DNA of 33,166 bases from Ignavibacteria bacterium. Lineage in GTDB: Bacteria; Bacteroidota; Ignavibacteria; UBA10030. The notes beneath the pieces are model-generated. The model saw nothing but the letters and a program-made list of their open reading frames with translations. It was not told the origin of the DNA and did not search any database. Every line of letters begins with the position of its first letter. Positions within the stretch are counted from its first letter, which is position 1. The stretch lies in assembly GCA_016873755.1 (NCBI GenBank), contig VGWB01000016.1, positions 1 to 33,166 on the forward strand, read 5' to 3'. Below, one piece after another: positions 2,882-10,311 of this stretch. Position numbers and translations under genes: made by a program.

Positions 2882-3025
2882 TCTCTAGAAGCTCGGTCGA
2901 AAAGTATTGCCACTAAGACACAAAGGCACAAAGTTCTTCAAAATGAAATCAAAACGAGAATTTTTCTTTGTGTCTTGGTGTCTTCGTGGCAAGTTTTGGG
3001 TTTTCGTCCGGGTCTCTAGAAGCTC
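2882..3025. repeat. 13-base direct repeats around the solo inverted-repeat element
   Basis: TCTCTAGAAGCTC occurs exactly at 2882-2894 and 3013-3025, on either side of the inverted repeat at 2909-2990. It could be a target-site duplication, or outer ends of a larger element, because the left flank and the reverse complement of the right flank also share a GAAAA stretch before GCCAC. Confidence 0.5.
2909..2990. repeat. Solo inverted-repeat element related to the GxxExxY-gene ends
   Basis: The left arm is 2909-2933 (begins GCCACTAAGACACAAAGGCA) and the right arm 2966-2990 (ends GTCTTCGTGGC). The arms are 25 bases, imperfectly complementary, with a 32-base AT-rich middle. The left arm matches 21 of 25 bases of the left end of the GxxExxY insert (9857-9881). 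It looks like a miniature, gene-less version of the same element. Confidence 0.75.
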
Positions 3026-9854: not shown

Positions 9855-10311
9855 TAGCCACGAAGCCACGAAGGCACGAAGTATGAAAGAGAATTTAGAA
9901 CCATTGTCGGAAAAGGATGAAGTAATAGCGACAAAGATTGTTGATGCCGCCTACACCGTACATTCGCAACTCGGTCCTGGCTTGCTTGAGAAGATATACG
10001 AGGTGTGCTTCTGTCACGAACTGGCAAAAAGAGGGCTCAACTACAAACGTCAGGTTGACTTGCCCATTGTTTATGACGGTCTATCGTTCGACGAGGGATT
10101 ACGCTTAGATGTTCTTGTCGAGGATACGGTCATTTGTGAGTTGAAAGCTGTCGATGAAATGAATCCTGTCTGGGAAGCGCAGGTGCTTAGCCATTTGAAG
10201 TTGACGAAGAAACGGCTCGGGTTCCTGATAAATTTCAATGTCCCGGCAATCAAGAAGGGTATCCGGAGGTACATTCTCTAAAAACTTTGTGACTTCGTGA
10301 CTTTGTGGCTA
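9855..10311 (+). mobile_element. Inverted-repeat-bounded element carrying a GxxExxY gene
   Basis: The left end 9855-9881 (TAGCCACGAAGCCACGAAGG...) and right end 10285-10311 (...GACTTCGTGACTTTGTGGCTA) are imperfect 27-base inverted repeats enclosing exactly one gene. The left arm ends one base before the gene's ATG and the right arm begins three bases after its stop. GxxExxY genes with such arms are dispersed in many genomes; autonomous movement is inference, since no transposase is encoded. Confidence 0.7.
9883..10281 (+). CDS. GxxExxY protein, PDDEXK-like nuclease-fold family
   Basis: This 132-residue protein has the name-giving motif G33-LL-E36-KI-Y39 inside GPGLLEKIYE. A PDDEXK-like core follows: D76 in RLDVLVED and E86-L-K88 in CELKAVD, then LNYKRQ and the closing GFLINFN (117-119 region). 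The length is typical of the family, assigned to PDDEXK_3 in family databases. No biochemical role is established; a nuclease-like or phage/mobile-element function is usually assumed. There is no clear Shine-Dalgarno sequence, because the left inverted repeat runs to one base from the ATG. It is unrelated to its neighbours in content and is best read as cargo of the surrounding inverted-repeat element. Confidence 0.88.
   Translation: MKENLEPLSEKDEVIATKIVDAAYTVHSQLGPGLLEKIYEVCFCHELAKRGLNYKRQVDLPIVYDGLSFDEGLRLDVLVEDTVICELKAVDEMNPVWEAQVLSHLKLTKKRLGFLINFNVPAIKKGIRRYIL

Follow-up and report, generated by a model that had tools for sequence, protein, structure and literature searches.

What kind of unit consists of one GxxExxY gene enclosed precisely between inverted repeats, with a gene-less counterpart a few kilobases away? 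The question is raised by a 33,166-nucleotide stretch of DNA (the window), which constitutes contig C16 in a draft genome of 3.97 Mb (G000). We conclude that the gene unit at 9857-10309 is probably an old copy of a single-gene, IS-like transposable element accompanied by MITEs, here called the 'GxxExxY element', with the GxxExxY nuclease as its mobilising protein.

The gene unit is 453 bp long and has inverted terminal repeats around its gene, as insertion sequences do. Its left arm (9857-9881, plus strand) reads GCCACGAAGCCACGAAGGCACGAAG, and its right arm (10285-10309, minus strand), CTTTGTGACTTCGTGACTTTGTGGC, is an inverted copy of it; each arm comprises three 8-bp words of the form NCACNAAG. 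The 132-aa GxxExxY gene (9883-10281 including the stop codon, plus strand) fills the space between them. A single T separates the left arm from the ATG at 9883, and three A residues follow the TAA stop (10279-10281) before the right arm begins. The original prediction placed the repeat ends one base upstream of the ATG and three bases downstream of the stop, exactly where they lie (9881/9883 and 10281/10285). It also described imperfect inverted repeats of 27 bases: the imperfect repeat stands, with 21/25 positions complementary and an inverted-repeat score of 54 for the gene flanks (maximum 31 among 100 shuffles), but the length does not, the core being 25 bases. An Rfam search of the window returned no family matches, and no target duplication was found within 60 bp of the two gene copies of G000.

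The gene-less copy at 2909-2990 agrees with its earlier description, with a 32-base centre and a left arm identical at 21/25 positions to that of the gene unit. Its 25-bp arms (2909-2933, plus strand; 2966-2990, minus strand) are complementary at 22/25 positions. This miniature lies inside a larger palindrome, CTAGAAGCTCGGTCGAAAA...TTTTCGTCCGGGTCTCTAG, which makes up a 135-bp MITE at 2885-3019 whose outer-end pattern matches at 2885-2903 (plus strand) and 3001-3019 (minus strand). Exact matches of this CTAG-type outer end number nine in G000, all adjoining arms; none was found on the gene copies of that genome. Nor was a gene remnant detectable in the centre of the window miniature or in those of the other G000 miniatures.

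We therefore treat the two window copies as two members of one arm family rather than as a proven parent and its deletion product, since the gene copies lack a target duplication, the miniature lacks a gene remnant and the CTAG ends are absent from the gene copies. The original reading of the pair as a full and a miniature form is accordingly not supported in the sense of parent and deletion product: both the remnant-free centre and the different outer ends speak against derivation of the window miniature from the window gene unit. The MITE at 2885-3019 is probably a non-autonomous derivative that has kept the recognition arms. The same outer terminal segment, CTAGARRC..CGAAAA, surrounds word arms on contigs C5, C7, C32, C34, C43, C60, C113 and C211 of G000, and also in a miniature of another genome, G029 (L171, about 1478-1660). 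In the G029 intergene a CTAG-ended MITE like those of G000 has CTAG on both sides, whereas the corresponding place in G021 has a single TTAG, a difference that points to a target of 4 bp and perhaps to a second transposition system.

Across G000, the pattern CCACNAAGNCACNAAG (at most one mismatch) has 49 matches, compared with 7 for a reversed control pattern, and the matches mostly form facing pairs about 65 bp apart. This dispersal is not due to chance. The genome holds about 15 gene-less pairs and two full gene units, that of the window and a complete one on C156; with a truncated copy on C52, three GxxExxY genes or fragments are present. The expectation that the arms would recur elsewhere in the genome, both with and without a gene, was thus correct. 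In the C52 copy (422-595; L058) the gene is cut short by a further palindrome of dispersed appearance, GATGTTACGCA...TGCGTAACATC, which interrupts it.

A homologue scan with the window protein (P0001) as single query revealed relatives, mostly 60-82% identical, in more than 12 phyla. The records are labelled Pseudomonadota, Desulfobacterota, Cloacimonadota, Bacteroidota, Nitrospirota, Nitrospinota, Planctomycetota, Chloroflexota, Calditrichota, Acidobacteriota, WOR-3, Dadabacteria, Dependentiae and others, and several genomes hold three or four homologues. Because many of these are MAGs, any one case might reflect a binning error, which cannot explain the breadth of the distribution. GxxExxY occurs in 46/61 genomes from the window's family and order, its own genome among them (up to 12 copies per genome), and in 68/138 genomes of a phylum-wide sample. 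PLSDB contains 7 plasmids with the gene.

Most P0001-like copies carry NCACNAAG words directly 5′ of the ATG and inverted words directly 3′ of the stop. With gene coordinates taken from profile matches, word arms flanked 31/67 GxxExxY genes on both sides and 0/133 control ORFs of the same loci, while a significant inverted repeat was detected at 50/67 and 6/133, respectively; about a quarter of the 67 genes thus lack one. The arm type varies among lineages (NCACNAAG/CACNAAG in the window, CGCNAAG and CACNGAG elsewhere) and follows the protein clade (Mantel r 0.57, permutation maximum 0.32), a correlation that co-inheritance alone could explain. Other arrangements were also observed: at L068, L075, L183 and L216 the arms beside the gene are reversed and the gene lies between two complete miniatures or hairpins. 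In genome G035 (C43:58267-58721, C15 and C27) arm words form tandem arrays, mostly on one strand, instead of dispersed facing pairs, with a word every 55 bp and eight or more copies in the C43 array.

The arms keep company with the gene at the level of whole genomes. Among the 61 genomes of the family and order, the arm pattern CCACNAAG was present in 30/46 with GxxExxY and in 0/15 without it (p = 6e-6, relatedness ignored), and all 12 genomes of the order sample bearing the variant CCACNGAG carry the gene. In the 138 genomes of the phylum sample, at least two arm matches were found in 17/68 GxxExxY genomes and 0/70 others (p = 2e-6, again ignoring relatedness); of eight genomes with single matches, five were GxxExxY-positive.

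Evidence of mobility comes from relatives. Element ends were mapped in G061-G064, the genomes of L177, L186, L218 and L179; copies at the level of the order are too diverged in their flanks. Beyond the words, the ends in these four genomes run on as GTTACTATTCAG / CTACCTGAACAGTTAC and are followed by 8-bp direct repeats; copies with mappable ends share about 12 further terminal bases, GTWACTRTTCAG. Perfect 8-bp target duplications, at unrelated AT-rich 8-mers, flank 12/37 copies (permuted mean 0.9, maximum 4.1). The gene-bearing copy L232, for example, has AAACTTTT on both sides. Its GxxExxY gene is itself interrupted by a 124-bp miniature, and the intact paralogue L177, 98% identical, provides the exact empty site, which lies in coding sequence devoid of arm words. 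GCGAACT is duplicated around this insertion; seven of the eight duplicated bases are visible because the element end here appears to be two bases shorter than usual.

Many miniatures of G061-G064 have lost the middle of the GxxExxY gene but still have its first or its last bases between their arms, and are thus internal-deletion derivatives of the gene unit. Those of L228-L231, for instance, retain ATGGCTTTTACCCCCTTA(T/C)C beside one arm. Of 34 miniature cores, 25 matched GxxExxY coding sequence, against 2 shuffled; the figure becomes about 24/33 without the row L232_548_829, a mis-paired full or nested element to be disregarded here and in the duplication count. The facing arm pairs examined in G061 bound at most about 580 bp, and no other gene was seen between them. 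A near-identical 140-bp miniature family has been amplified in two MAGs (L237/L238 in G062 and L248-L252 in G063), which suggests either transfer of miniatures between hosts or shared ancestry.

Closer to the window, one genus of its family has a gene unit in G025 and G009 that is absent from G029, and G027 has a different miniature in the same intergene. Family members in other species are thus not fixed inserts lacking an empty site, the outcome that would have counted against the original prediction. Together, gene-derived miniatures, target duplications, the empty site and presence or absence in relatives identify the GxxExxY family as a transposable element with non-autonomous derivatives. 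As regards a dispersed mobile unit with miniatures moved in trans by an arm-adapted nuclease, the original prediction therefore has good support from relatives, where miniatures are moreover confined to genomes with GxxExxY.

The protein itself offers clues to the enzymology. P0001 scores 140.9 bits against TIGR04256 (NCBIfam; cut-off 35) and 134.5 bits against PF13366 (Pfam; cut-off 22), the only families it matches (Pfam searched up to E 0.001). Among 29 relatives, seven residues never vary (G31, G33, E36, Y39, D76, K88 and Q100) and two more, E86 and Y104, hardly do, a pattern that gives the PD-(D/E)XK signature with a QxxxY motif (D-ExK-QxxxY); no conserved cysteine column appears in the same alignment. 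An AlphaFold2 model (pLDDT 93.5) has as its best structural match 4ic1 (Z 9.6, rmsd 3.4 over 98 residues, 15% identity), the structure of SSO0001, a Cas4. It is the only match with Z of at least 8, followed at about Z 6-7.5 by restriction enzymes, Hjc resolvases and AddAB. Foldseek with the model returned no match at E <0.001, and a sequence search of the PDB found no relative. As judged from the model, the likeness to 4ic1 is one of shared fold, a Cas4-type nuclease core, and not of Cas4 membership. The conserved D and ExK on a restriction-endonuclease-like fold identify P0001 as a PD-(D/E)XK nuclease. Median dN/dS across 18 related genes from many phyla was 0.09 (33/153 pairs with unsaturated sites), indicating purifying selection on the protein while it spread.

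Because miniatures without a gene nevertheless move, the enzyme must act in trans. GxxExxY is the simplest candidate: no other gene lies between the ends where these were examined, miniatures are confined to its genomes, arms and protein co-vary, and the protein is under purifying selection. On these sequence patterns, we infer that the nuclease is most likely the mobilising enzyme and that it binds the arms. In the proposed mechanism, the inverted arms of three tandem 8-bp words plus about 12 terminal bases would constitute the element ends; several GxxExxY subunits would bind the repeated words (three in each arm), cleave the element at its ends and make a staggered 8-nt cut in the target. 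Joining might be carried out by the nuclease itself or by host replication and repair. This step is the weak point of the model, because we know of no PD-(D/E)XK nuclease that performs strand transfer on its own. Gene-less arm pairs would be non-autonomous derivatives that retain the recognition arms. A more far-reaching proposition, that this roughly 130-aa, Cas4-like PD-(D/E)XK family represents an autonomous class of mobilising enzyme, which alone (with host repair) transposes DNA bounded by word arrays, generating 8-bp duplications and MITE families across more than 12 phyla, appears to us evenly poised between true and false.

In the main rival account the unit is mobile but GxxExxY is only a passenger (a defence or addiction nuclease, say, that prevents loss), while a resident DDE-type transposase reads the ends in trans, as in ordinary MITEs. 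DDE elements typically make duplications of 8 bp and have short inverted ends, and both are found here; moreover, the CTAG-type outer ends bounded by CTAG (window miniatures, G029) look like a separate transposition system. A passenger, however, would hardly be expected to be the same gene paired with the arms across more than 12 phyla, with no other gene seen between such ends, with miniatures confined to GxxExxY genomes and with arm type following protein clade. We consider this explanation rather unlikely, though a serious contender.

Two further explanations are harder to reconcile with the evidence from relatives. Targeted, homing-like insertion, in which the nuclease cuts genomic sites and repair copies the unit into the break, would make the arms recognition sequences and not transposon ends. 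It would draw on a nuclease family often used in targeted cutting, on loci where words are repeated outside the unit or in reverse arrangement, and on the different miniatures found in the same intergene of related species. Yet the duplications fall at unrelated AT-rich 8-mers, the exact empty site falls within a coding region that lacks the words, and miniatures without flank homology have spread, which leaves this account improbable. Still less credible, indeed very improbable, is that the arms are static hairpins with terminator, RNA-processing or regulatory roles around a resident gene and that nothing moves. The arms do lie immediately beside the start and stop codons and could form RNA hairpins, and the G000 miniature centres hold no gene remnant; for the family as a whole, however, this account is contradicted by target duplications, by the exact empty site and by miniature centres derived from the gene, and the lack of Rfam matches in the window and of arms at control genes also opposes it. 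A transposable element mobilised by its own GxxExxY nuclease remains the explanation we prefer.

The GxxExxY element is apparently a very widespread, undescribed kind of mobile element. Our literature search, which left bioRxiv and most subscription papers outside its scope, found no description of it; one paper (PMC8934634) mentions GxxExxY in passing. GxxExxY is an abundant family of 'unknown function'. Were it shown to be what a transposable element carries as its one gene, this would account for the many paralogues, for the passage from phylum to phylum and for a large class of palindromes found between genes of environmental genomes. Should the nuclease move the element unaided, PD-(D/E)XK-only elements would join the short list of bacterial transposition enzymes, and the GxxExxY element would be among the smallest autonomous DNA elements. 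A GxxExxY transposase would be categorically new.

Among known systems, 23S rRNA intervening sequences and the dispersed S23/IVP genes encoding four-helix bundles (TIGR02436), which are common in the same genomes, likewise place a small gene inside inverted repeats. The S23 protein is unrelated to GxxExxY, its arm words are different, and no 8-bp duplications were detected in the 17 units tested; S23 units were therefore rejected as the same element despite their similar architecture. The window unit was in turn rejected as an S23/IVP intervening sequence, since it matched only TIGR04256 and PF13366. S23/IVP-type genes occur in 56/61 genomes, with up to 17 copies each. At S23 loci among L118-L147 (e.g., L121, L131, L136, L140 and L144), inverted arms of 6-8-nt quasi-tandem words abut start and stop; each locus has words of its own, and 18/29 showed a significant inverted repeat. 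At L131 (G037) and L136 (G052), in two families of the order, S23 units with AGGGATTAGGGG-type arms occupy the same position, which, as judged by eye from the flanking translation, seems to fall within a coding sequence resembling that of a DNA methyltransferase.

The RAYT/REP/REPIN system (PMC3116915) also combines a single-gene unit with short palindromic repeats dispersed in the same genome. Membership was rejected because PF13366 alone was matched and no Y1 (HUH) transposase gene is present in the GxxExxY unit, which differs further in its staggered 8-bp duplications. Rpn proteins (YhgA-like, Transposase_31) are PD-(D/E)XK nucleases whose family formerly bore a transposase annotation (PMC5350276, PMC10327210); they belong to another Pfam family, and the abstracts of these papers describe no flanking word arms. 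P0001 matched neither PF04754 nor PF12784 (PF13366 only, at E up to 0.001), and Rpn/Transposase_31 membership was likewise rejected. Cas4/RecB-type nucleases resemble GxxExxY in structure, through the match to 4ic1, and in the D-ExK-QxxxY motifs, but Cas4 has iron-sulphur cysteines that are absent from the 29 relatives, and GxxExxY sits in a single-gene mobile unit and not in a CRISPR locus.

A precedent for a PD-(D/E)XK nuclease used in transposition is TnsA of Tn7, which works with the DDE transposase TnsB, whereas the GxxExxY unit has no partner gene. The GxxExxY element behaves like insertion sequences with their MITEs, which share the single gene between inverted ends, the duplications of fixed length, the empty sites and the gene-less internal-deletion derivatives moved in trans. 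Unlike them, the GxxExxY unit has as its sole gene a PD-(D/E)XK nuclease instead of a DDE, HUH, serine or tyrosine enzyme, and its ends are arrays of three 8-bp words.
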